A stretch of DNA of 34,538 nucleotides. Source: a virus. The DNA is taken from IMG/VR virus record IMGVR_UViG_3300042922_001431, positions 1 through 34,538 of that record; one strand, given 5' to 3'. Positions 1,315-16,914 of this stretch are shown here, piece after piece. A program made the translations under genes and the position numbers. The notes below the pieces were generated by a model. That model saw nothing but the letters and a program-made list of their open reading frames with translations, was not told the DNA's origin and searched no databases. Numbering within the stretch: the stretch's first letter is position 1; each line of letters opens with the position of its first letter.

Positions 1315-1560
1315 CTATCCGGCTTCTTCCCTGTCACTGTTTTCATCAAACCATATATCCAATTGCCTATCAGAGAATTCCTGTTCTCTCACTTTTTTTC
1401 TCTGAAGTTCAAACACTCCGTTAATCTTCTTGTCAATTTCTAACCTATCAGAAAAGTAAGCTTCAAATGATTTCTTACTGTCGGCATATTCTTTGTCGTT
1501 TTTCTCGGACTGTTTAATAAATCTATCTAACCGTTTTTGTAGTTGTGGTATCAGCTTCAT
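1315..1560 (-). CDS. Charged coiled-coil early protein
   Basis: The product has 81 residues, is rich in Lys, Glu, Asp and Arg and is predicted to be almost entirely helical, with heptad-like spacing around FIKQSEKNDKEYADSKKSFE. An ATG with GAAGGTG upstream defines the start, 15 nt after the stop of the cytosine methyltransferase gene. No domain is recognised. A small structural or DNA-associated helper is possible, but nothing in the sequence shows it. Confidence 0.6.
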   Translation of the reverse strand: MKLIPQLQKRLDRFIKQSEKNDKEYADSKKSFEAYFSDRLEIDKKINGVFELQRKKVREQEFSDRQLDIWFDENSDREEAG

Positions 1561-1575
1561 ACTTTCACCTTCTTC

Positions 1576-2148
1576 CTATCCCCACTGTTGAGCCATTGCA
1601 TCAGCTATGCCCTGATATGTACGACTTCTTTCTTTCCACCTGTCCGGCCCCGGTGCCATGTGATGAACTTTTGGTTCTCTGTCATCAACAATATTTGTAG
1701 GCTGTAATTCAGGAAGATTTTTTAACCATAGGCAAGTCGCTTTTGTTTCACCGTGTCCAAACTGCCAAGGTTGTATTATTTGAGAGTATTTAACTCCAAT
1801 CCCCCCCACTGCATATTTGTGCTGTATTGGGTTTTCAACAGCCACCCGGAAAATATCAAGGTTAAGACAAAATTTAAAGAATTCAATTGCCTCCTGCATC
1901 TTATCCCAGCGTCCAGGCTGAGTATGTAACCATCTAACACCGCTATTTGTAAGGTAAGTGCAAGGCGGGTGACATATGGCAAGATCAAACTGTTTCCAAT
2001 ATTCTGCCGGAAAACTCAAAACATCCCTTTGTTCATGTGGCCCCGGCTTTTCAGTAGGCAATATGTCTATGCTTATAGCATCATGGCCCTGCCTAATAAA
2101 TGCATCCCTTACGGTTCCTGAGAATTCACAAATTACTGCTACTTTCAT
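1576..2148 (-). CDS. Orphan C5-cytosine methyltransferase-like protein
   Basis: This 190-residue protein looks like a compact phage DNA methyltransferase of the cytosine-C5 type. It starts with an AdoMet-binding strand and loop (VAVICEFSGTVRDAF, then ISIDIL), carries the catalytic-type motif HPPCTYLTNSG with the PPC cysteine near residue 63, and has VENP in the position of the ENV motif. A large target-recognition domain is absent, so it is much shorter than restriction-system enzymes. The start at 2148 has a perfect GGAGGT site; an upstream in-frame start (2181) would run through it. No restriction nuclease lies nearby, so its likely role is self-protection of phage DNA. Its ribosome site is inside a hairpin (separate entry). 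Confidence 0.75.
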   Translation of the reverse strand: MKVAVICEFSGTVRDAFIRQGHDAISIDILPTEKPGPHEQRDVLSFPAEYWKQFDLAICHPPCTYLTNSGVRWLHTQPGRWDKMQEAIEFFKFCLNLDIFRVAVENPIQHKYAVGGIGVKYSQIIQPWQFGHGETKATCLWLKNLPELQPTNIVDDREPKVHHMAPGPDRWKERSRTYQGIADAMAQQWG

Positions 2149-2155
2149 CTTTTTG

Positions 2156-2173
2156 ACCTCCACGTCTGGAGGT
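2156..2173 (-). promoter_or_regulatory. Hairpin closing the methyltransferase ribosome site
   Basis: In the minus-strand mRNA, ACCTCCA pairs perfectly with TGGAGGT across a four-base loop. The second arm is the ribosome-binding site of the methyltransferase gene, 7 nt from its ATG. Directly upstream is a 12-bp perfect palindrome (GTGTGCGCACAC, 2172-2183). This could limit translation or form a binding site for the product itself. Confidence 0.6.
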
Positions 2174-2215
2174 GTGCGCACACTTAATTAACTAGTATTA
2201 CTCCGATATTTTTAA

Positions 2216-2719
2216 TTAACTTACTTTTCTTTCAACTGTAACTATAGTGTCGTTATGCCATCCACCATGAGCTACAATAAGTATTTCTATGATCTCAAAT
2301 CCGTATTTTTTACCAATGCCCCCACTATTCCAACCACAGGTTATACATATTCCGTTATACTCAGTAATCCTTGAAATTTGTTGTTTGTGTTTGCCCCAAT
2401 AGCTTGCTGACGTAGTTTGTTTATTAACTGATTTCCCTAATTTGGTGTAGCATTCTGATATTTGTCTCGGGCTATAAGGTGGATCGTAAAGAATTAAAGA
2501 GATAGTTTCATTTGCGAATAGTTTTAAAAAATCCAGGGCATCCATATGGTAATCAGTATCGTATTGCGTGTCTATGTCATTGGTAACCTCTGCAAGCTTA
2601 TTTTTATTTGCAAAAGGGTCAATGCTGTTTTTGCGTATGTATTTATTAATTAATTCTCTAATAGGTTTAATCTCAAAAGTGTTGCTATTTGGCATAGCCC
2701 ACACTCTGTTTATATTCAA
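2216..2719 (-). CDS. Phage adenine-type DNA methyltransferase (DPPY)
   Basis: The protein has 167 residues from a TTG start with AAGGTGGG upstream (ATG at 2695 is an alternative without a good site). It carries the DPPY catalytic motif of amino-methyltransferases at about residues 79-82 (ISLILYDPPYSP) and a glycine-rich ICITCGWNSGGIG stretch. Known phage relatives methylate adenine (N6) or cytosine (N4); the specificity cannot be read here. It lies just upstream of the C5-type enzyme in the same operon, with no restriction enzyme, so both are orphan enzymes, most likely anti-restriction. Confidence 0.75.
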   Translation of the reverse strand: MNINRVWAMPNSNTFEIKPIRELINKYIRKNSIDPFANKNKLAEVTNDIDTQYDTDYHMDALDFLKLFANETISLILYDPPYSPRQISECYTKLGKSVNKQTTSASYWGKHKQQISRITEYNGICITCGWNSGGIGKKYGFEIIEILIVAHGGWHNDTIVTVERKVS

Positions 2720-2777
2720 AATCCCACCTTCTTTCCGTCGCTATCTTTTGCTTTCCTGTCGTAACGTCATGTTGTCT

Positions 2778-3095
2778 TTAATAGTCATAATCTAATTTTC
2801 TTCCGCATCCTGGGCAATATCTGAATTGGCTTTCATTAACCTTTATTACATCTTTCTCGATTGTATCGCCAATTATTAAATCAATAAGCTTTTCGCCTTT
2901 GCAGTAAGCGCAAGGTGCTGTGTTACCAGATGACTTATATCTATTGCTAGAGCATAAATCCTGTGTTTTTATCAATGGAGTGATCTCCTGCAGCAATTCG
3001 TCATTGCTTTTAGGATTATTTGTACATAGCACACACGGATAATCAAACCATCCTTTACCTGTGCTACATACATCACATTTGCTATAATTCTTCAT
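2778..3095 (-). CDS. Zinc-ribbon-like early protein
   Basis: This 105-residue protein carries several paired cysteines: CDVC, CVLC, CAYC and a C-terminal CPGCGRKLDYDY that looks like the knuckle of a zinc ribbon. Its start overlaps the end of the excisionase-like gene by 14 nt. Proteins of this layout are common in Firmicutes phage early operons and have no assigned function. Binding of zinc is a safe guess; binding of nucleic acid is only an inference. Confidence 0.65.
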   Translation of the reverse strand: MKNYSKCDVCSTGKGWFDYPCVLCTNNPKSNDELLQEITPLIKTQDLCSSNRYKSSGNTAPCAYCKGEKLIDLIIGDTIEKDVIKVNESQFRYCPGCGRKLDYDY

Positions 3096-3276
3096 CCTTT
3101 GAACCTCCCGCCAAAAATTTATCCAGCTCAGCTTTTGCTATAAAAGTCCGTCCCCCATACTGTACACACCGAATAACACCATCTTTTAACATTTTGCGGA
3201 CTGTTTTATCCGATATTCCCAGGTACTGAGCCGCTTCTAGCTGATTAAATGCAGCCTGTTCAATTTCTCTTGACAT
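3082..3276 (-). CDS. Excisionase-like helix-turn-helix protein
   Basis: This 64-residue protein is a single winged-helix domain of the excisionase/MerR type: AAQYLGISDKTVRKMLKDG is the helix-turn-helix and RTFIAKAELDKFL the wing and last helix. Such proteins act as recombination directionality factors or small repressors. GGAAAGGAAGGG lies upstream of the ATG, and further upstream are three 10-bp-spaced repeats that could be its binding sites. Its position inside the early operon fits a gene expressed on induction, but control of the serine integrase is not shown. Confidence 0.7.
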   Translation of the reverse strand: MSREIEQAAFNQLEAAQYLGISDKTVRKMLKDGVIRCVQYGGRTFIAKAELDKFLAGGSKDEEL

Positions 3277-3301
3277 TTTACTTCCCTTCCTTTCCTCTGT
3301 G

Positions 3302-3328
3302 TTCCGTTCTATTCCGTTTCATTCCGTT
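3302..3328. repeat. Three direct repeats at exact 10-bp spacing
   Basis: TTCCGTT occurs at 3302, 3312 and 3322, exactly one helical turn apart, in the leader of the excisionase-like gene. Ten-base spacing puts all copies on one face of the helix, as in a cooperative protein-binding site. A further shared block, CGTCGCTATCTTTT, follows at 3334-3347 and recurs at 2736-2749. Confidence 0.6.
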
Positions 3329-3358
3329 AGTTGCGTCGCTATCTTTTTCTTTTGCGAC

Positions 3359-3904
3359 TCATATTCTCATAGGCATCAAGTATTTTATTCCAGTTCCGGT
3401 CCTTAAAATAAATGGTTGATTTTCTCCCTTAAATTCAATAGTTACAGCATCATTTACATACCTTTTTTCGATGCTTTTAAGTACTTCACTGAATTTATCC
3501 TTGTCAACTCCTATTTTGAAAACCGTTTCTATTTTTTCATGCTTTTCCAGAATATCTTTTTCATTAAATGGTTTGCAGTCAGGCTGCTTAAAACCAACAA
3601 TATTACCATCAATGTTTATGTAGCAGATATCTCCGTTTAACTCTACTTCAGCAACCTTATTATTCGTTGCTCCTAGCGGCAGTGAAGGTTTTATATACAC
3701 ACTGAAGTTTTCATCACATTTTATTACTGTTCCATTTTCTACTGACAACATAAATCCATTTAAAGCAACAGCTTTTACCTTGTTTCCCTTTAAGAAGTCT
3801 AGCCTTATATACTGAAGAACAACTCTGTTCTCATCTTGTGATATAAATTTTCTTGTTGCTCTAATTAAACTTTTTAACTCCCTAACTTCAATTATCGCTT
3901 TCAT
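3359..3904 (-). CDS. Half-length sliding-clamp-like protein
   Basis: This 181-residue protein resembles the bacterial DNA polymerase III beta clamp (DnaN), the ring that tethers polymerase to DNA. The strongest sign is the C-terminus YLMPMRI, matching the MPMRL-type ending of DnaN, preceded by a segment like the last clamp domain (FKIGVDKDKFSEVLKSIEK, then PFILRTG). The first half (KAVALNGFMLSVENG) resembles the strand with the conserved Asp-Gly turn of a clamp domain. Host DnaN has three domains and about 370 residues; here there is room for two, as in T4-type or PCNA clamps. The start at 3904 has AAAGGAAAC upstream; the longer frame reaching 3988 overlaps the neighbouring gene. It sits beside SSB and the replisome organiser, which fits a replication role. 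Confidence 0.6.
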   Translation of the reverse strand: MKAIIEVRELKSLIRATRKFISQDENRVVLQYIRLDFLKGNKVKAVALNGFMLSVENGTVIKCDENFSVYIKPSLPLGATNNKVAEVELNGDICYINIDGNIVGFKQPDCKPFNEKDILEKHEKIETVFKIGVDKDKFSEVLKSIEKRYVNDAVTIEFKGENQPFILRTGTGIKYLMPMRI

Positions 3905-3935
3905 ATGGTTTCCTTTCTGCACCCTTAGTGCTATC

Positions 3936-4220
3936 TCATGCGCAAATATCCATCCAGATATGTTTCTCTTCCTCAACAGCGTAGTCATATTCCATTCTTG
4001 CTCCTACACTTTCTTTCCAGTTAGGCAAAAATGATACAGCTTCTGCAACGTCAATCATGCTTCTACAAATATGCATATACTCATGATGTTCAAGTCCCAG
4101 AGGAAGTCTGGCAGGATTTAAGACTGTATGCCCTTCTGATTCAAGAATCATTTGCCTAAGATCAAATTCTGCTCTATAATCTTCATTTCCGGTTATTTTG
4201 CCAGCTATATATACCTTCAT
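3936..4220 (-). CDS. DUF4406-like (nucleoside deoxyribosyltransferase fold)
   Basis: This 94-residue protein starts MKVYIAGKITG, followed by GHTVLNPARLP and a helix MIDVAEAVSFLPNWKESVGA. This pattern is typical of DUF4406 and related nucleoside 2-deoxyribosyltransferase-like proteins, which have a Rossmann-like fold with an N-terminal glycine motif. Related enzymes cleave or transfer nucleoside bases. The product lies directly downstream of SSB in the replication cluster, so a link to nucleotide metabolism is plausible but unproven. Confidence 0.7.
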   Translation of the reverse strand: MKVYIAGKITGNEDYRAEFDLRQMILESEGHTVLNPARLPLGLEHHEYMHICRSMIDVAEAVSFLPNWKESVGARMEYDYAVEEEKHIWMDICA

Positions 4221-4231
4221 TTTGATACCTC

Positions 4232-4648
4232 CTAAAACGGTAATTCATCATCTTCAGCCATTGGGTAGAATCCATCACCGTCATATTGTTGTTCATAAGC
4301 ATTTGGTTTGCAGTCCCTTGACGTTTCTCTCTTGCTATCTGCAAAGTATGTTTCATCTGCAACGACCTCAGTAACGTAATGGATATTACCCTCGTTATCT
4401 TCCCATTTCCTTGTTTGAAGTCTGCCTACAATAGCAACCTTCATACCCTTTGTGAGGTACTTTTGGCAAAACTCTGCTGTTTTGTTCCATGCAATAATAT
4501 TAAAAAAATCTGCTTGTGGCTTACCATCTTTGGAAGTACCACGTCTATCTACTGCAATTGGAAAACATGCTACCGCAGCATTATTTACTCTTGTATATCT
4601 TAGTTCAGGGTGCTTAGTTAATCGCCCCATTAAAACAACTTTATTCAA
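4232..4648 (-). CDS. ssb: Single-stranded DNA-binding protein
   Basis: This 138-residue protein begins (M)NKVVLMGRLTKHPELRYT and shows the OB-fold landmarks of bacterial SSB (FFNIIAWNKTAEFCQKYLTKG, VAIVGRLQTRKW). It ends in the acidic tip EDDELPF, which in SSB binds partner proteins. It coats single-stranded DNA during phage replication. Translation starts at a TTG with AAAGGGGG upstream, overlapping the end of the replisome-organiser gene by 8 nt; a longer in-frame extension to 4783 lies inside that gene and is not needed. Confidence 0.93.
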   Translation of the reverse strand: MNKVVLMGRLTKHPELRYTRVNNAAVACFPIAVDRRGTSKDGKPQADFFNIIAWNKTAEFCQKYLTKGMKVAIVGRLQTRKWEDNEGNIHYVTEVVADETYFADSKRETSRDCKPNAYEQQYDGDGFYPMAEDDELPF

Positions 4649-5618
4649 TACTAATTCCCCCTTTTGTATTGCTAAAAAAATCTGAATAGTATTCTTTTTG
4701 ATACTCCCTTTGTTCAAAGTTGCCTCGGTTTGATTTTTCTGACTTAGGTGGGCTAGTTGGTGTAGTGGGAGAATCATTATCATAATTGCCTTCTAAAACT
4801 TTTACATAGTTGCTGTCATTCTCAATAAGCCAATCGAATGTCGCTTTCCACTTTGTGCTGACACCTGTAAGAAATGAACTTGATTGAGATTTTTCAAATA
4901 ATTGCTTAAATCCATTTAGTTCCTTAATATCATTCCATCTAGCCTTGATTTTCTTTTTCCGCCCTTCAGACAACTGTTTAACCTTTGGCAGGCTTGTACA
5001 TATGGAGTTAAATAGTTTTACAATTTCTTCATAAGGATAGTGAGCGATCGTGTCAACGTCAGTTGACGATATAGTGTTTATAGGTAATAGGGAATCAGGA
5101 ATCAATAAGAGGGAATCAGCGTGGCTAGTAGTATGCAATTCTCGTTCTTGCTCTGTGCCTGTATCGGGCAAGGTTATTTCTGTTTCTGTACTAGCACTAT
5201 TCGTGTAGTGTTCTTCTTCTGTATTTTCAACATCCTTGTTTGATTCTTGTACTGTTCTAGCATGGTGCTTGTATAGTGCTGAGTCGGGTTTATACTCTGG
5301 TATAGTGCTTGCAACCTCTTTTTTATGCGGATTTTGGTGCTTTGAAAAGTTGATAATTTGTATGTATTTGTTGCCCTCAACTTCATATCTTTTAATGAAA
5401 TCCCCCCGAGATTTTTGTAAATCATCAAGCAGTATGTCAACATCGCAGTTGTCATATGGGAGAATATCAATTTTTAATCTTTTAGGACGATCTTGCAATC
5501 GTCCTTCTCTATCAGCTTGGCACCATAAACCAATAAAAAGTAATCGTGCTAGCGGACTAAGTTCAGCTAAATATTCATTAGTGAAAAATGTTGGCTTTAT
5601 GTTTCTTGAACGAGCCAC
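4641..5618 (-). CDS. Replisome organiser / replication initiation protein
   Basis: The 325-residue product starts at a GTG with AAGGCAGGTGA upstream, 4 nt after the preceding gene. The N-terminal ~95 residues form a winged-helix domain typical of phage replication proteins (SRNIKPTFFTNEYLAELSP, then LARLLFIGLWCQADREGRL). A long low-complexity linker follows (residues ~110-190). The C-terminal part, around YEEIVKLFNSICTSLPKVKQ to WLIENDSNYVKVLEG, matches the replisome-organiser/DnaD-like domain that recruits the host helicase. It is next to SSB. The linker-coding DNA carries tandem 11-bp repeats that look like an origin, as in other phages whose initiator gene contains its own ori. Confidence 0.82.
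   Translation of the reverse strand: MARSRNIKPTFFTNEYLAELSPLARLLFIGLWCQADREGRLQDRPKRLKIDILPYDNCDVDILLDDLQKSRGDFIKRYEVEGNKYIQIINFSKHQNPHKKEVASTIPEYKPDSALYKHHARTVQESNKDVENTEEEHYTNSASTETEITLPDTGTEQERELHTTSHADSLLLIPDSLLPINTISSTDVDTIAHYPYEEIVKLFNSICTSLPKVKQLSEGRKKKIKARWNDIKELNGFKQLFEKSQSSSFLTGVSTKWKATFDWLIENDSNYVKVLEGNYDNDSPTTPTSPPKSEKSNRGNFEQREYQKEYYSDFFSNTKGGISIE
5193..5310. repeat. Candidate phage replication origin (11-bp iterons)
   Basis: Four units lie head to tail with exact 11-bp spacing at 5238, 5249, 5260 and 5271 (GTTTGATTCTT, GTACTGTTCTA, GCATGGTGCTT, GTATAGTGCTG). Another GTATAGTGCTT is at 5300-5310, a related GTGTAGTGTTC at 5203-5213, and an inverted AGCACTAT at 5193-5200. Eleven is not a multiple of three, so the protein sequence does not explain the periodicity. 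The location inside the replisome-organiser gene is a classic place for an iteron-type phage origin. Confidence 0.55.
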
Positions 5619-5622
5619 AATG

Positions 5623-5994
5623 TCACCTGCCTTTCCAATGTGCTTTGTGTCTTTCGTAAATTCTTCGATCAGCTTCAGTTTCAATCAGAAATGTCTCTTC
5701 TAATACCTTGGGCATTAGCTCGTAATACTCTGGAATAGCGCCGTAATATAGTTCTATAAAATCGGTATGGCATGTCTCCAAAGATCCGAAATAAAAAGGC
5801 CAACGTTCAAAATTATTGAAAGTATAGAATATTGCTCGTTGCCCAGGGTACTTGATACAGGCTATTATTTTTACAACTACAACATTACAGGCACCTGGAA
5901 GAATCTTTTCAATTTGACCTATGTAATTGCCATTATGACCGGCGAATATTTCAACAATTTTGCCTATTGATTCTGAAGCTAACTTCTTATTCAT
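5623..5994 (-). CDS. Early phage protein, unknown
   Basis: The protein has 123 residues. The first third (SIGKIVEIFAGHNGNYIGQIEKILPG) resembles a small beta-barrel (SH3/KOW-like) and the rest is mixed. CAAGGAG lies upstream of the ATG, and a short inverted repeat (CTACAG/CTGTAG) lies in the leader at about 6013-6033. It directly precedes the replisome organiser, 4 nt away, so the two are probably translated together. I cannot assign a family. Confidence 0.6.
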   Translation of the reverse strand: MNKKLASESIGKIVEIFAGHNGNYIGQIEKILPGACNVVVVKIIACIKYPGQRAIFYTFNNFERWPFYFGSLETCHTDFIELYYGAIPEYYELMPKVLEETFLIETEADRRIYERHKAHWKGR

Positions 5995-8173: not shown

Positions 8174-9691
8174 GTGAAAAATGTTGCTATATATCTCAGA
8201 AAATCAAGAGAAGACGAAAAACTTGAAAAAGAATTAGGGAAAGGAGAAACTCTTTCTTTCCATAGGAGAGATTTATTAAAATTCGCTAAAGAGAATAATT
8301 TCAATGTTGTAAAGATTTTTGAAGAACTTGTTTCTGGAGAGAGCCTTTTATACAGACCACAAATGCTAGACTGTCTTAAAGAAGTTGAACAAGGTTTATA
8401 CTATGGAATTCTTTGCATGGATCAACAAAGATTAGGTCGTGGTGACATGGAAGAACAAGGGATAATCTTGAAAACTTTTAAAAAAACCGGTACCAAGATA
8501 ATCACTCCCAATAAGACTTATGACTTAGATGACGAATTCGACGAGGAATACAGTGAATTTGAAGCTTTCATGAGCCGTAAAGAGTACAAAATGATAAAAA
8601 AGAGACTGCAACGTGGAATTAAGCGATCTGTTGAAGATGGAAATTATAATAGTCCCAGAAGACCATTTGGCTATGAAATAGTGGAATTGAAAAACGGGAG
8701 AACTTTAAGCATTAATGAGAATGAAGCCAATATTGTTAAGACGATATATAATTGGTACCTATATGAACATGTTGGCAGCCAGATTATTGCTGATAGATTA
8801 AATGGTATAGGGATTAAAACCACGCTTGGTAACCAATGGTCAAGCCATGCAGTCGCCGAATTAATAAAAAATCCATTATATGCAGGCAAAATAGCAACTA
8901 ATAGACGTTATGGATATAGAACTTCAACTAAAAAGAAGTCTGCAAAAAATAGACCTGTAGATGAATGGGTTATGTTTGAAGGAAAGCATGAAGCATTAAT
9001 TTCAGATGAACTATATAATTCGGCGATGAATATTATGAAAACACACCGGAAATCGCCAATTAATCCAAGCCTTGAATTTGTTAATCCATTATCCGGGCTT
9101 GTTGTATGTGGTGTTTGTGGATCAAAACTAACATATAGAACATATTCAAAATCGGGAGTTCAGCCACATTTAATGTGTAGGAACAAATGCGGAAATAAAA
9201 GTTCTAAATTTATTCATATTGAAAATACAATCCTTAACGAATTGAGATTAAAATTACAATTACTTAAAGCAGAAAGCCTAAATAAGCCTGAAAACAATAA
9301 TAAAGCTGAAGACAAAAAGTATGAAGAAATAAACACTTACGAACAACAATTAACCGAAGTAAATAAGCAAAGAGAAAATGCTTATGATTTACTTGAGAAA
9401 GGTATTTATACTGTTGAGGTTTTTACAGAAAGACTAAAAGTTTTAGGTGACAGAATTGAAACACTTAATCAAAGTATAAGTATTTTGAAAAAAGAAATTA
9501 GTAATTTGAATAATAAACAAACAGTTGATATGGAAATCAATGCGATACAAGATGTTTTGACCCTCTACGATAAAGCTACTACAACTCAAAAAAATATGCT
9601 CTTAAAAAGCGTCATTGAAAAGGCTGTATATAACAAAGAGAAGACCGCAAGGGAAGATAATTTTACAATCGAGCTATATAGCATGTTTTAG
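8174..9691 (+). CDS. int: Large serine recombinase (phage integrase)
   Basis: This 505-residue protein is a large serine integrase. The N-terminal resolvase domain (about 1-150) carries the catalytic serine in YLRKSRED (Ser11) and the arginine-containing block MDQQRLGRGDMEEQG. A recombinase domain follows (about 165-265, RRPFGYEIVE to NPLYAGKIA), then a zinc ribbon (CGVCG with a second pair in CRNKCG) and a long coiled coil (about 365-445) that controls synapsis. It starts at a GTG with AGGGAGA upstream. Such enzymes integrate phage DNA between short attP and attB sites and need a directionality factor to excise. A perfect inverted repeat lies immediately after the stop codon. Confidence 0.93.
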   Translation: MKNVAIYLRKSREDEKLEKELGKGETLSFHRRDLLKFAKENNFNVVKIFEELVSGESLLYRPQMLDCLKEVEQGLYYGILCMDQQRLGRGDMEEQGIILKTFKKTGTKIITPNKTYDLDDEFDEEYSEFEAFMSRKEYKMIKKRLQRGIKRSVEDGNYNSPRRPFGYEIVELKNGRTLSINENEANIVKTIYNWYLYEHVGSQIIADRLNGIGIKTTLGNQWSSHAVAELIKNPLYAGKIATNRRYGYRTSTKKKSAKNRPVDEWVMFEGKHEALISDELYNSAMNIMKTHRKSPINPSLEFVNPLSGLVVCGVCGSKLTYRTYSKSGVQPHLMCRNKCGNKSSKFIHIENTILNELRLKLQLLKAESLNKPENNNKAEDKKYEEINTYEQQLTEVNKQRENAYDLLEKGIYTVEVFTERLKVLGDRIETLNQSISILKKEISNLNNKQTVDMEINAIQDVLTLYDKATTTQKNMLLKSVIEKAVYNKEKTAREDNFTIELYSMF

Positions 9692-11064: not shown

Positions 11065-11823
11065 TTATTTACTTTCTTTCTTTTCTATTTCTGATCTTAC
11101 AAATAATAGGATTTCTTTTACATTTAAATCCATATTAAGTAAGCCTAAATTAGATTTTCCGAATGCCTTTTTAAATTTATCAGGAGTTGAATGTTTGTAA
11201 ATGGTTTCTATCGTACTTCTGATTTTGCGATGAACAAAATTCCAGCTTGTCCCCTCATCTGCTGCTATTATATTGCATAATTTTTTTACACTTATATTCT
11301 CATCTGCAATTAAGAGCATCATAGCTTTTTTTATATATCTGCTACCAGGAGGCTGTATATTAAATTCTTTTAACATTTTATCAATTTCTATAGGTATGTC
11401 TATTTTGTCCATTCTTTCTTCATTCATAGTAGCAATAGGGATTTCTTTATTATCGTGTGCAATTTTAATTCGATCTATAAATACATCGAAGTTAAAGGGC
11501 TTCATAAAGTACGTTACATCTTCAAATCCACCATGAGCAAATTTCCGTTGTTTCTCAATTCGCTCACTTGATATTACTATTTTTGTCATAAAGTCATTAC
11601 CATCTTGCTTCAGCTTGTTTAATACTTCTATTCCATCCATTTCGGGCATTACTATGTCTAGTATTATAATGTCTGGTTTTAACTCACATATTGCATTGTA
11701 TGCCGTTTTCCCGTCCATGAAAGCCCCTATAACCTCCATATCTGGTTGACCGTTAATTAGCTCTACCATTACATATAAAGCTTCTCTATTGTCTTCTGCA
11801 ATGATTACTTTAATTCTGTCCAT
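11065..11823 (-). CDS. Spo0A-like sporulation response regulator
   Basis: This 252-residue protein has the two-domain layout of Spo0A, the master regulator of sporulation entry. The receiver domain (1-120) keeps the acidic pocket (Glu10, Asp11), phosphoacceptor Asp56 in ILDIVMPEMDG, Ser85 in VISS and Lys108 in YFMKPF, so it should be phosphorylatable. After a linker, the C-terminal domain (about 145-245) matches the Spo0A effector, with the recognition helix FVHRKIRSTIE and the FKKAFG motif near the end. Host Spo0A has about 267 residues, so this is near full length but diverged. The start at 11823 has AAGGGGG upstream. A candidate promoter (TTGAAA, then TAAGAT) precedes it. Spo0A-like genes are known in phages of spore formers; a role in steering host sporulation is inferred. 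Confidence 0.8.
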   Translation of the reverse strand: MDRIKVIIAEDNREALYVMVELINGQPDMEVIGAFMDGKTAYNAICELKPDIIILDIVMPEMDGIEVLNKLKQDGNDFMTKIVISSERIEKQRKFAHGGFEDVTYFMKPFNFDVFIDRIKIAHDNKEIPIATMNEERMDKIDIPIEIDKMLKEFNIQPPGSRYIKKAMMLLIADENISVKKLCNIIAADEGTSWNFVHRKIRSTIETIYKHSTPDKFKKAFGKSNLGLLNMDLNVKEILLFVRSEIEKKESK

Positions 11824-11968
11824 GACTAGCCCCCTTAAATAACAATGTTTACATAATATCTTATAATATCTATTTATGGATTTCAATAGCATGTTCTACT
11901 CCACGCGTCATTTTCCAAAAAAAATCGAAATCTCATGATAGAATTTTAAGTTATGAGGTGGCTTTATA

Positions 11969-12178
11969 ATGATAAAATATAAACTATCGGACATTCTAAT
12001 AGACAAAAATATATCTCAAAATTGGTTGAGTATTGAAACTGGGATTCGTCCTGGAACAATAAATAAGTATACTTACGGTACTATACAGCGAATTATCCCT
12101 GGTCATTTAGATAAGATATGCAAAGCTTTAAATTGTACAATTTCAGATTTAATTGAATATGTTCCTGATAAAAAATAA
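11969..12178 (+). CDS. Small XRE-type transcriptional regulator
   Basis: The 69-residue protein is a single Cro/C1-type HTH domain: ISQNWLSIETGIRPGTINKYTYGT forms the HTH and HLDKICKALNCTISDLIEYVP the typical family ending. GAGGTGG precedes the ATG, and TGATAGAAT just upstream is an extended -10. It is divergent from the Spo0A-like gene, with 145 bp between their starts, so it could regulate that gene as well as itself. A strong terminator follows directly. Confidence 0.75.
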   Translation: MIKYKLSDILIDKNISQNWLSIETGIRPGTINKYTYGTIQRIIPGHLDKICKALNCTISDLIEYVPDKK

Positions 12179-12711: not shown

Positions 12712-13704
12712 TTATGAAACGTATTTTTTGTGATTCATTTGTACTTCCTCAGTATTGAGGTCAGCATATATTTGTGTTGTGGCCGGATCTGTATGCCCCA
12801 ACATTTTTTGTACAGCTTGAATACTTGCCCCTGCATTAACCGCTGTCGTAGCTGTGGTATGTCTCATTAAGTGTGGATGGACTGATTTTGTTATTCCTGC
12901 CCTCCCTCCAAGTTTGTTAAATGTTCTTTGATATCCCCGGTGTCCTAATCGTTTAAAAGGTAATTTTGAGCCTACAAATAGGGCTTCGCTTTTGTCTTTT
13001 CTGGACTCAATATAGTTCCAGAGATGAACCTTTGCTTTAGCATTGAGAAATACTGGCCTTTCTTTATCGCCTTTACCAATAACATTGACCATGCCCTTAT
13101 TCCAGTCTATGTCTAGTCTATTTAACTTATAAACCTCATCAAGGCGGGCCCCGGTACTATAAAAAAATTCTAGAATGGCTTTTTCTCTTTTCGTCCAGCA
13201 GGCCATGCGCAGCATTTCCAATTCTTCCCCTGACAATGCTTTTCGGATTCTTTTTGGTTTCTTAGTAGGTTTGATTTTGCGCATAGGACTTTTAATTATG
13301 TAGTCTTCAGCTTCGAGCCAGTTAAAAAAGCTTCTGAGGATACTCATTTCTGTATCCAGTGTAGAATTCTTTACCCCTAAACTTGAATATTGAGCGAGAT
13401 ACCTCCGGATATCAATTACATTAATATCCTCAATTCGTTTCTGCATGATCCGCGCAAATCTGTTTAAGTGTAGAGTATAACTTCTTAGTGTCCTGGGCGA
13501 AAGGCCTTCTAATTTTTTCGTTGTTAGAAATAAGATAAGTTTTTCTGGTATTCCTTCGTAAGGAATGATAGAAAACTCGGCCGGCTGCAGATCATAATTA
13601 TAGAGTTCTTCTTCTATTATGATTCTAAGCTGAACGGCAGTTTCCTGAGTAAGGAAATCAATCGCCTTACTCAGGATTCGGATAATTACATCTTCTTTTA
13701 ACAT
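12712..13704 (-). CDS. LexA-controlled tyrosine recombinase (XerC/D-like)
   Basis: The 330-residue protein has an N-terminal SAM-like core-binding domain (about 48-140) and a C-terminal catalytic domain with the complete set of active residues: Arg187 (STGARLDEV), Lys211 (GKGDKERP), His278 and Arg281 (HPHLMRH), His304 (LGHTD) and Tyr313. It begins at the ATG at 13704 (AGAGGGG upstream); the longer frame to 13761 enters the leader hairpin. It has a LexA box inside its promoter spacer and a long leader hairpin. With a serine integrase also present, this enzyme may serve a second site: multimer resolution, an inversion, or mobility of the accessory cassette. The target site is not visible. Confidence 0.88.
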   Translation of the reverse strand: MLKEDVIIRILSKAIDFLTQETAVQLRIIIEEELYNYDLQPAEFSIIPYEGIPEKLILFLTTKKLEGLSPRTLRSYTLHLNRFARIMQKRIEDINVIDIRRYLAQYSSLGVKNSTLDTEMSILRSFFNWLEAEDYIIKSPMRKIKPTKKPKRIRKALSGEELEMLRMACWTKREKAILEFFYSTGARLDEVYKLNRLDIDWNKGMVNVIGKGDKERPVFLNAKAKVHLWNYIESRKDKSEALFVGSKLPFKRLGHRGYQRTFNKLGGRAGITKSVHPHLMRHTTATTAVNAGASIQAVQKMLGHTDPATTQIYADLNTEEVQMNHKKYVS

Positions 13705-13775
13705 ACTATACCCCTCTCTTGCACGAAGGAATAAGACAATGATATAATTATCTTGTTCCATTCGTGGGACGTGTT

Positions 13776-13943: not shown

Positions 13944-13974
13944 AAAAAAAATATAGACCTTTTATAAGGTCTAT
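13944..13974 (-). terminator. Terminator of the DUF488 cassette
   Basis: On the minus strand a perfect 9-bp stem (ATAGACCTT with AAGGTCTAT, 13953-13974) with a four-base loop is followed by eight Ts. It ends the two-gene HTH-DUF488 operon just before the LexA-controlled recombinase promoter. Confidence 0.88.
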
Positions 13975-14826: not shown

Positions 14827-15456
14827 TTATAAATCTATTATTTTTACCCCTAACTCAAGTGATTTTGATATTGTGTCAGCAATAACACTTCTATGACACG
14901 TTTTTGGGTCCTTCTCAAAACATAATAAACAAAAATTAGTATCTTTATTAGATAAAATAGCTGTATTTACAATATCCATTGTTTCAGCCTGAGTTTCTAA
15001 ATATTTACGGTACCCACTAAAAAATTCATCATAATTATGATCGCTGTGAAGCTTTTCTCTTATATTTTTGGGACTTCCTAATTCTTTAAAGTGAGCGTAC
15101 TTTATGCCATTTTCATTTAGTATCTCGGAAAGACTTGTTTTCGAAAACCCTTTTTTCCTACTCATTGGAATTTCTCTTACATCTACAATAATATTAACTT
15201 TGTTTTCCTTTAAAGTGTTAATAAAAGTTTCAATAGTTTTACCTTCGTACCCAGTAGTAAACAAATTAATAAACTTAACTTTGGGTCCATATAATCTAAT
15301 CATTGCAGAATTTAATACTAACCAGGTGTTTGCACTTTTCCGAACCTCATCCGTTTTAAACTTGTTCTTCTTAATTGCATGTCTTAAGGTAGAATCGTCA
15401 ATGTTCCATTCTGCTGCTGCTTCTTGAATTGTCATAATATCATTTAATATACTCAT
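14827..15456 (-). CDS. HTH-DUF488 fusion protein
   Basis: This 209-residue protein fuses an N-terminal HTH (about 7-55, TIQEAAAEWNIDDSTLRHAI) to a DUF488 domain (about 63-205). The DUF488 signature is visible as LFTTGYEGKTIETFINTL, VDVREIP, the YAHFKELGSP block, and CLLCFEKDPKTCHRS with the conserved Cys-His-Arg. DUF488 has no proven biochemical role. The ATG has GAGGTGT upstream. The promoter region contains three copies of one palindrome, so the HTH half probably represses its own operon, with DUF488 as a possible sensing part. The next gene is its uncharacterised partner. Confidence 0.8.
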   Translation of the reverse strand: MSILNDIMTIQEAAAEWNIDDSTLRHAIKKNKFKTDEVRKSANTWLVLNSAMIRLYGPKVKFINLFTTGYEGKTIETFINTLKENKVNIIVDVREIPMSRKKGFSKTSLSEILNENGIKYAHFKELGSPKNIREKLHSDHNYDEFFSGYRKYLETQAETMDIVNTAILSNKDTNFCLLCFEKDPKTCHRSVIADTISKSLELGVKIIDL

Positions 15457-15491
15457 GGCTTACACCTCATAAATTATTTTTTACAATTATA

Positions 15492-15555
15492 TTCACGAAC
15501 TCGTGAATTATATACATTTTCACGAACTCGTGAACAAAATTCACGAACTCGTGAT
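15492..15555. promoter_or_regulatory. Three identical operators before the HTH-DUF488 gene
   Basis: TTCACGAACTCGTGAA occurs at 15492-15507 and 15519-15534, and with one changed end base at 15540-15555. Each is a near-perfect palindrome, TCACGA-2-TCGTGA, with centres 27 and 21 bp apart. A TATAAT (minus strand, 15512-15507) sits at the edge of the first copy, so bound regulator would cover the promoter. No other copy was noticed in the window. Confidence 0.82.
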
Positions 15556-15687
15556 TACTTTAATTGTATCACTAATGCCTGAGATGTAAATATACTTTAG
15601 CCATGAATTATTATTTATAGTAACACCTAGTTTTGTTAAAGTAAAGAATATTTGTAAAAAATAATCATTTATTGTAACTTTATGGAC

Positions 15688-15720
15688 AAAAAAATAAGCC
15701 CTCCCGTTTAAAGGAGGGCT
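15688..15720 (-). terminator. Terminator of the lysis genes
   Basis: On the minus strand a perfect 8-bp GC-rich stem (AGCCCTCC with GGAGGGCT, 15697-15720) is followed by a run of Ts just after the holin gene. It marks the end of the phage late region and the border with the accessory region. Confidence 0.9.
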
Positions 15721-15731
15721 ATAAAGTAAAA

Positions 15732-16226
15732 TTAAAAATTATTAGGAGGTTTGAGTTGTTGAGTATTGTCAGTTATCTTATTCCCTGCTGCATCAACAGT
15801 CCCTTTAAATAATGATATTGCAGATTTTAAAAAATCTGGTATTGGAGCTCCCATTTTTGCAGCATTTTCTACTATGCTCCCTAACTCGGTTAATATATAC
15901 CAAACAACAATTATGGGACATAGTAAAACAGTATAGGTAAAAGGTAAAGATATACTTGGAATATTATTTATTATTGAACCAATGACTCCGTCTAATACCG
16001 CAGCCACAATGACAACTACAATGCAACCGGCTTTATGCCAAATCCCTTCCCTGCCCTTTTGAGAACTCCACTGCCCATTTTTTGCTGCAGCGGCTGAACC
16101 AGATATCCAATCTGCTACCAAACACGCTATGAATGCTACTATTAGCCATCCAAACCACCCAAGCATTGCAGACACTCCTGCAAATATTGCAGTTAGTGTT
16201 ACCTTAAAAGCATTAACATTTTCCAT
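15732..16226 (-). CDS. Phage holin
   Basis: This 164-residue protein resembles the clostridial phage_holin_4_1 (TcdE-like) family. Three hydrophobic segments are visible (about 10-38, 66-86 and 94-116), with ADWISGSAAAAKNGQWSSQK as the typical loop after the first and a charged C-terminal tail. Holins open the membrane so that the endolysin reaches the wall. The start at 16226 has GGAGGGAA upstream and comes directly after the amidase stop. An in-frame start five codons upstream is also possible. Endolysin before holin is a common Firmicutes order. Confidence 0.85.
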   Translation of the reverse strand: MENVNAFKVTLTAIFAGVSAMLGWFGWLIVAFIACLVADWISGSAAAAKNGQWSSQKGREGIWHKAGCIVVVIVAAVLDGVIGSIINNIPSISLPFTYTVLLCPIIVVWYILTELGSIVENAAKMGAPIPDFLKSAISLFKGTVDAAGNKITDNTQQLKPPNNF

Positions 16227-16227
16227 C

Positions 16228-16914
16228 CTATTTCCCTCCATAACTTTTAGCTATTTTTATTATTAAACCCTGAAAAGCCGGGTCTATATCCTTTCTTTTT
16301 AGCCAATATTTATAATTTGAATCTATCTTTTCTACAACAATCTTTAGAGCCTCTTCATAGGTCAAGGGTTCTTCCATTTCCAATTTAATCAGAGGAATAA
16401 AATTATTCTCTGCAGCTGCTTTAGTGTTTCCACCGAAATACTTCGTTCCCGGGCAAGATTTATTTTGCACCCAGCAATGGTATATAAGTGTTGATGTAGA
16501 AGGAACGATGTTAAACTTTTTGCACAGAAGGGCATTAAGCAATATAATACTATGCCTTTGTTCTTCTGTCATAATATCAGTATCGAAGTTTCCGACGTTC
16601 TCAATTGTGATTGAATCTCTGTTTCCAGGACTCAGGAACCCTCCACCATCTTTTGATAGTGGTCGGCCTACACAAATTGTTCCGTCCGGGAATGTACTGA
16701 AATGCTGTGCTATTTCACTCATTTTGAGTGTATTGACATGATAGTTTTCCATGCTTCGCATAAGAGCAAAATGGTTGTTTTTTACGTCTTTATATGCTGG
16801 ACTTGCAGTATGGTGTTGCTGTATAGTTTTAAACGTTTTAGCCCCTATTAGTCCTTCAATATACACCCGGAATTCTTCCCTGTTCATTAAAAGGAACTTT
16901 CCATCTTGTTTCAT
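16228..16914 (-). CDS. N-acetylmuramoyl-L-alanine amidase (endolysin)
   Basis: The 228-residue protein is an Amidase_2/PGRP-type zinc amidase, which cleaves between muramic acid and the peptide stem of peptidoglycan. The zinc ligands are visible in QHHTAS (His34/35), YHCWVQ (His146) and SCPG (Cys154), with the conserved ITIENVGNFD block between. The last ~50 residues (TYEEALKIVVEKI to IIKIAKSYGG) form a short helical tail that may help bind the wall. It lacks a signal peptide, so release depends on the holin. Its leader contains a terminator-like hairpin. Confidence 0.9.
   Translation of the reverse strand: MKQDGKFLLMNREEFRVYIEGLIGAKTFKTIQQHHTASPAYKDVKNNHFALMRSMENYHVNTLKMSEIAQHFSTFPDGTICVGRPLSKDGGGFLSPGNRDSITIENVGNFDTDIMTEEQRHSIILLNALLCKKFNIVPSTSTLIYHCWVQNKSCPGTKYFGGNTKAAAENNFIPLIKLEMEEPLTYEEALKIVVEKIDSNYKYWLKRKDIDPAFQGLIIKIAKSYGGK

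Follow-up and report, generated by a model that had tools for sequence, protein, structure and literature searches.

What does a phage carry between its lysis genes and a recombinase when the gene placed there joins an HTH to a DUF488 body and stands behind an array of palindromes? An earlier note had read the locus as a compact, self-regulated cargo unit of two genes without known function. We analysed the whole stretch of DNA available, 34,538 nt (hereafter the window), together with its relatives. The pair proved to be an existing candidate system, PDC-M19, and the most likely reading of the module is an autoregulated nucleic-acid-processing conflict module.

The first gene (gene A) does fuse the two domains, both well above their gathering cut-offs: HTH_59 (PF20038) scored 68.4 bits against 27 over residues 1-59, and DUF488 (PF04343) 118.4 bits against 22.2 over residues 74-195. 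The earlier note was right that a second gene follows, but the interval it gave for the unit, 14827-15555, leaves gene B outside. The perfect terminator that it described does close the operon, and together with a promoter of its own (TTTACA-N16-TGxTACAAT, common to the window and its nearest relative in an alignment of the leaders) this predicts that the A-B unit is transcribed autonomously (Table 1). The phage version is thus a minimal unit of 1.6 kb.

Table 1. Features of the A-B operon and of its surroundings in the window
Feature	Coordinates	Strand	Remarks
Large serine integrase	8174-9691		
Cro/CI-type HTH	11969-12178		
XerA-type tyrosine recombinase	12712..13761	-	other slot border
Intrinsic terminator, end of A-B operon	13953..13974	-	9-bp stem, then ATTTTTTTT; from sequence
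Gene B, 273 aa	13985..14806	-	GTG start, GGGGGA-type ribosome site; PADLOC PDC-M19B, phrog_25907
Gene A, 209 aa	14827..15456	-	HTH_59 + DUF488; PADLOC PDC-M19A
O4, predicted operator TTCACGAGTTCGTGAA	15492..15507	-	exact copy; absent from L106
O3, predicted operator TTCACGAGTTCGTGAA	15519..15534	-	exact copy
O2, predicted operator ATCACGAGTTCGTGAA	15540..15555	-	about at predicted transcription start
Promoter TTTACA-N16-TACAAT (predicted)	15563..15590	-	TG ahead of -10 (extended -10); positions conserved in L106
O1, degenerate operator CTCAGGCATTAGTGAT	15568..15583	-	5/14 mismatches; in promoter spacer; positional homologue of L106 O1
Intrinsic terminator, upstream of operon	15697..15720	-	parts operon from holin / lysis genes
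Holin	15732-16241	-	lysis gene, slot border
Amidase endolysin	16228-16914	-	lysis gene; lysis border spans 15732..16914

Three palindromes stand 36-99 bp before gene A (the sites of the array being TTCACGANNTCGTGAA, with the repeat also written TTCACG-N4-CGTGAA), with perfectly matched 7-bp arms around a 2-bp centre. They had been described as identical, which holds for two of them, the exact copies of TTCACGAACTCGTGAA at O3 and O4; the third, TTCACGAACTCGTGAT at O2, differs by one end base. That none had been noticed elsewhere agrees with our scans: the window contained no further site at up to three mismatches, the 6 matches obtained were reached in 0 of 100 shuffles of the window, and the whole 5.5-Mb assembly held no site at up to one mismatch beyond these three. 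In 2.9 million viral contigs the exact 16-mer gave 19 matches, a count that is uninformative alone because it is about the chance number. A fourth, degenerate site (O1), overlooked in the first reading, lies within the promoter spacer, 28 bp from the next site. A match as good or better is found at 0.2% of positions (2 per 1000), and homology to a spacer site in the nearest relative predicted its place.

That relative is a viral contig (L106) whose proteins are 68% and 58% identical to those of the window, and its three sites are arranged around the conserved promoter with the same 28- and 21-bp spacing. They lie at -102, -74 and -53, against -99, -78 and -51 in the window, plus the degenerate site at -127 (spacings 28, 21 and 27). 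Comparison of the two leaders suggests that the ancestral array probably consisted of a promoter-spacer site (O1), a site at the start (O2) and one further downstream (O3), and that the lineage of the window has probably since weakened O1 and gained O4. The latter abuts a second promoter-like site, TTCACG-N16-TATAAT (15534-15507). We also considered an SOS box and rejected it, as the centre of the palindrome is unlike the Gram-positive LexA consensus.

The palindrome recurs with the HTH. An exact TCACG-N4-CGTGA was present upstream of other HTH_59 genes at 10 of 24 loci, in a modest sample with many related members in which DUF2442-HTH_59 fusions make up 8 of the 10 exact matches. The same motif was found 0 times in 33.8 kb downstream of the 24 loci, 0 times upstream in 300 Markov shuffles and 0 times in 925 kb of control loci that had been selected on account of other genes. 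The upstream limit of 310 bp had been widened from 300 after a first look, because some sites lay at the edge, a change without effect on the control counts. TCAC was invariant in all 16 of the HTH_59-family sites compared. The palindrome sits at about -45 of DUF4160 / DUF2442-HTH_59 operons (L140, L175-L177, L179, L180), forms arrays with 31-bp spacing ahead of another type of regulator (L137, L139, L189) and precedes a third type at L188. These operons share the HTH family and the promoter palindrome with the window, whereas their partner domains are unrelated to DUF488. Written with its flanks as (A/T)TCACG-N4-CGTGA(A/T), the motif is seen upstream of unrelated HTH_59 operons at L137, L139, L140, L175-L181, L188 and L189.

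By contrast, of 89 co-directional PDC-M19 loci considered, only L106 had repeated palindromes upstream of the operon; the array therefore goes with HTH_59 and not with the pair generally. The palindrome thus appears to be the predicted operator of a whole family of HTH_59 DNA-binding heads. In the literature that we searched, we found no HTH_59 operator code common to unrelated accessory operons. For the HTH_59 family this amounts to a predicted operator with which a single sequence search could locate its regulons. For the locus itself, the array conserved in L106 and the family-wide palindrome argue strongly for the self-regulation that the earlier note had proposed, and we consider it highly probable that gene A represses its own operon by binding at the promoter.

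Both genes match PDC-M19 of PADLOC and are adjacent in the window, the GTG start of gene B lying 20 nt beyond the stop of gene A. The PDC-M19B profile matched gene B over its full length (5.1e-71), and PDC-M19A matched gene A in the DUF488 part only (1.8e-43; profile positions 142-292); the N-terminal 140 or so positions of the profile found no match in gene A, where HTH_59 stands instead. A typical PDC-M19A has another N-terminal domain of about 150 aa or none, unlike the protein of the window with its HTH_59 and multi-site operator. The description of the pair as being without known function is correct experimentally, in that we found no experimental work on PDC-M19, on DUF488 function or on HTH_59 in the literature searched; the pair had, however, already been catalogued, and both folds can now be read from predicted models. 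PDC entries in PADLOC denote candidate phage-defence systems that are unpublished (PMC11811056), and tests of other PDC candidates have been negative (PMC12409345).

The DUF488 body of gene A is predicted to be a PTP/RapZ-like Cys enzyme whose predicted catalytic residues are intact. Across 47 sequences C179 and E181 were invariant and C187-H188-R189 were kept in at least 90%. In the model of gene A (pLDDT 88), strand 175-179 precedes the C..E.....CHR loop, with C179 at the end of the strand. Foldseek matched the model to PTP-fold phosphatases and RapZ, all at E > 0.01; it aligns with the RapZ C-terminal domain at low similarity (E about 0.1), and RapZ is a chromosomal RNA adaptor, unlike the phage protein. 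A PDB sequence search with gene A gave no meaningful match. The 2023 rhodanese-phosphatase survey of Burroughs and Aravind reportedly groups DUF488 with RapZ-C and DUF4326, and is said to predict nucleic-acid (DNA)-end processing in conflict systems for the DUF488 clade. DUF4326 has been proposed to act on ribose-linked phosphates (PMC9503650).

Gene B matched no Pfam family above cut-off, and a PDB sequence search returned none. Its score against DuOB (PF22557), 13.5 bits, is below the 27-bit gathering cut-off; profile comparison by hhalign nevertheless gave a probability of 76% (P=2.4e-5), against 0.7% for an unrelated DUF488 control, and the two proteins share the motif order CxAG / W(I/V)R / SL..(I/F)KP / ITD. 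The model of gene B (pLDDT 91) matched RPA, telomere end-binding protein (TEBP), HIN-200 and LEF-3 in Foldseek at E about 2e-4 and probabilities of 0.9-0.99, with low TM-scores of about 0.3. We predict from these comparisons that gene B has a tandem-OB fold and is a distant relative of DuOB. The arrangement resembles that of DUF488-N3a/DUF488-N3i with DuOB (PF22751, PF22752, PF22557), in which a DUF488 Cys enzyme likewise lies beside an OB-type partner; there, unlike in the window, DuOB is preceded by a tandem of two DUF488 genes, and the locus lacks an HTH. The possible metal site suggested for gene B (C179, C184, H187) did not survive as a family feature, being kept in a subset of relatives only.

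The earlier note had proposed that the pair be sought in other genomes. A DUF488 gene adjoined the gene B homologue in 100 of 105 loci, spread over bacteria, archaea, plasmids and phages; the layout was DUF488-then-B in 56, B-then-DUF488 in 33 and convergent in 11. From this linkage we regard it as practically certain that A and B act together. Homologues of gene B were found in Gordonia phages, in bacterial and archaeal plasmids and in many phyla, and mobile carriage amounted to 7 phage records, 24 plasmids and 11 viral contigs; among cellular genomes the pair is patchy. Single-protein queries with A and B gave no match in the viral contigs. The broad gene B alignment offered no usable conserved stretch, and a three-sequence profile was used for these contigs. 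What varies is the head of the DUF488 protein: HTH_59 (in the window and L106), an XRE-type HTH (L010), ParB_N + HTH_ParB (L015), a 150-aa head that matches no Pfam family above cut-off, or none at all. Among the relatives searched, L106 alone shares the HTH_59 head on the pair.

On Haloquadratum plasmid PL100 (L015, 7088-8170), a fusion of ParB_N, HTH_ParB and DUF488 is annotated as a partition protein. Archaeal ParB-CTPase-HTH-DUF488 fusions have been described (PMC12704722) and likewise place a DNA-binding head on DUF488 with B adjoining, although that head is ParB_N + HTH_ParB and the one in the window is HTH_59. The L015 fusion adjoins a gene B homologue and so probably belongs to PDC-M19, rather than serving in partition. 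Gene 42 of Gordonia phage Nymphadora (L008, 6828-7280), annotated as a HipA toxin, is actually a DUF488 protein; it is convergent with a gene B homologue and adjoins the immunity repressor. Near an IS-type transposase in a congeneric genome (L007, 1495-1692), about 65 aa of a gene B homologue persist as a remnant at 68-73% identity; judged by its sequence, this is a decayed copy of the A-B module.

The neighbours of the pair include scattered defence genes, among them a type IIG RM enzyme, a Type I methyltransferase and kinase-like matches, seen without a matched control. At many loci the surroundings are ordinary, for example beside copper-resistance genes on plasmids. At L103, a type IIG restriction-methyltransferase gene (1328-4045) lies 20 nt upstream of the pair (4066-5828) on the same strand.

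The window makes up nearly the whole of a 35,158-bp contig from a 356-contig assembly. An exact 99 bp is repeated at both ends of this contig, as expected of a circular assembly; at about 35.06 kb the genome of the phage is therefore probably complete, and the phage was probably extrachromosomal, induced or circularly permuted. Its siphophage-type gene set is full (terminase, portal, protease, tape measure, tail, replication and lysis genes). The placement of the operon in a cargo slot between lysis genes and recombinase was well founded: behind orthologous amidase and holin genes, other phages hold a KAP NTPase and GIY-YIG nuclease (L195), a D12 (Dam-type) DNA adenine methyltransferase (L196) or FtsK-like and replication-relaxation genes (L194, whose recombinase is orthologous to that of the window at 76%). 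As different genes fill the slot in sibling phages, the position of A-B is a cargo position. In L106 the operon, read by eye, likewise comes after lysis-type genes. The variable slot behind orthologous lysis cassettes is worth mining for defence genes.

These results suggest how the module might work. The HTH_59 head would bind the four-site array, probably as dimers, covering promoter spacer, start site and leader, where bound repressor would block RNA polymerase. Gene B would be the nucleic-acid-binding partner, probably supplying the Cys site with DNA or RNA (ends). Phage or foreign nucleic acid engaging the A-B complex might titrate A off its operators and derepress the operon, a guess that fits the anatomy; the derepressed complex would then modify or cut back the target nucleic acid and, in a lysogen, might serve a superinfection or anti-MGE function. 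That the A-B complex acts on nucleic acid we consider rather likely, and for the reading as a whole (a phage-borne PDC-M19 module, self-repressed by its HTH_59 head, with a Cys enzyme and OB partner, derepressed by titration and directed against superinfection or MGEs) we judge the chances to be even. A benefit against competing phages or MGEs is put forward tentatively, at slightly less than even chances; a defence role of the pair is plausible, given its mobile spread, the cargo slot, the PADLOC listing and the type IIG enzyme at L103. PDC-M19, a candidate defence pair, is thereby tied to a concrete hypothesis, namely that a Cys enzyme works together with a tandem-OB partner on nucleic acid. 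Extending this to the family, HTH_59 might be a portable head for sensing and autoregulation whose operator code is fixed and which has been shuffled onto accessory conflict modules (DUF488 + tandem-OB, DUF4160/DUF2442 and others); here it would couple a nucleic-acid-end-processing enzyme to its own expression, with invading nucleic acid titrating the repressor off four operators and setting off a burst of a new type of superinfection defence. We regard this extension as doubtful.

A predicted autoregulated two-gene operon with an operator array, kept linked on plasmids and phages, could also be a TA-like addiction or maintenance cassette, in which the HTH-bearing, first-encoded A is the regulator or antitoxin-like partner, the A-B complex represses the operon, and toxicity of DUF488 or B, released once the phage is lost, stabilises the element. 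The same HTH_59 operator code is found at DUF4160/DUF2442-HTH_59 operons, and DUF4160/DUF2442 is listed as the TA pair dhiTA (PMC8198452). However, neither the large, conserved tandem-OB protein B nor the conserved DUF488 enzyme resembles a small labile antitoxin, and many relatives are convergent or in reverse order, with a DUF488 that has no HTH. We consider this explanation unlikely, and give the same low weight to an autoregulated repair or maintenance module that serves the phage itself through DNA-end processing in replication or recombination. The adjoining recombinase, the OB-fold partner and carriage in phages and replicating plasmids are what such a module would have, and the end-processing prediction mentioned above suits repair and defence alike; yet the unit brings a promoter and a terminator of its own, is missing from siblings with orthologous lysis genes and is patchy in cellular genomes, and is therefore accessory and not core.

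The remaining two alternatives concern the repeats. They might be operators of another phage regulator, such as the Cro/CI-type HTH that the phage encodes, the pair then being a lysogeny-controlled moron; as no such site occurs near the Cro/CI-type gene or elsewhere in the phage, and the palindrome accompanies HTH_59 genes in other genomes and other settings, this is very improbable. That the palindromes work at the RNA level, as leader hairpins for attenuation or as a protein-binding riboregulator, is more improbable still: the 100-nt leader does fold far better than shuffles (z = -5.8), but it is the sequence that is conserved and not pairing alone, as in the invariant TCAC, and one L106 site is placed ahead of the start, within the promoter spacer.

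Two further features of the phage fall outside the A-B module. Besides its large serine integrase, it has a XerA-type tyrosine recombinase. It also encodes, at 11065-11892 on the minus strand, a Spo0A-like response regulator (receiver + Spo0A_C) that matches phrog_37855 and possibly interferes with host sporulation control.
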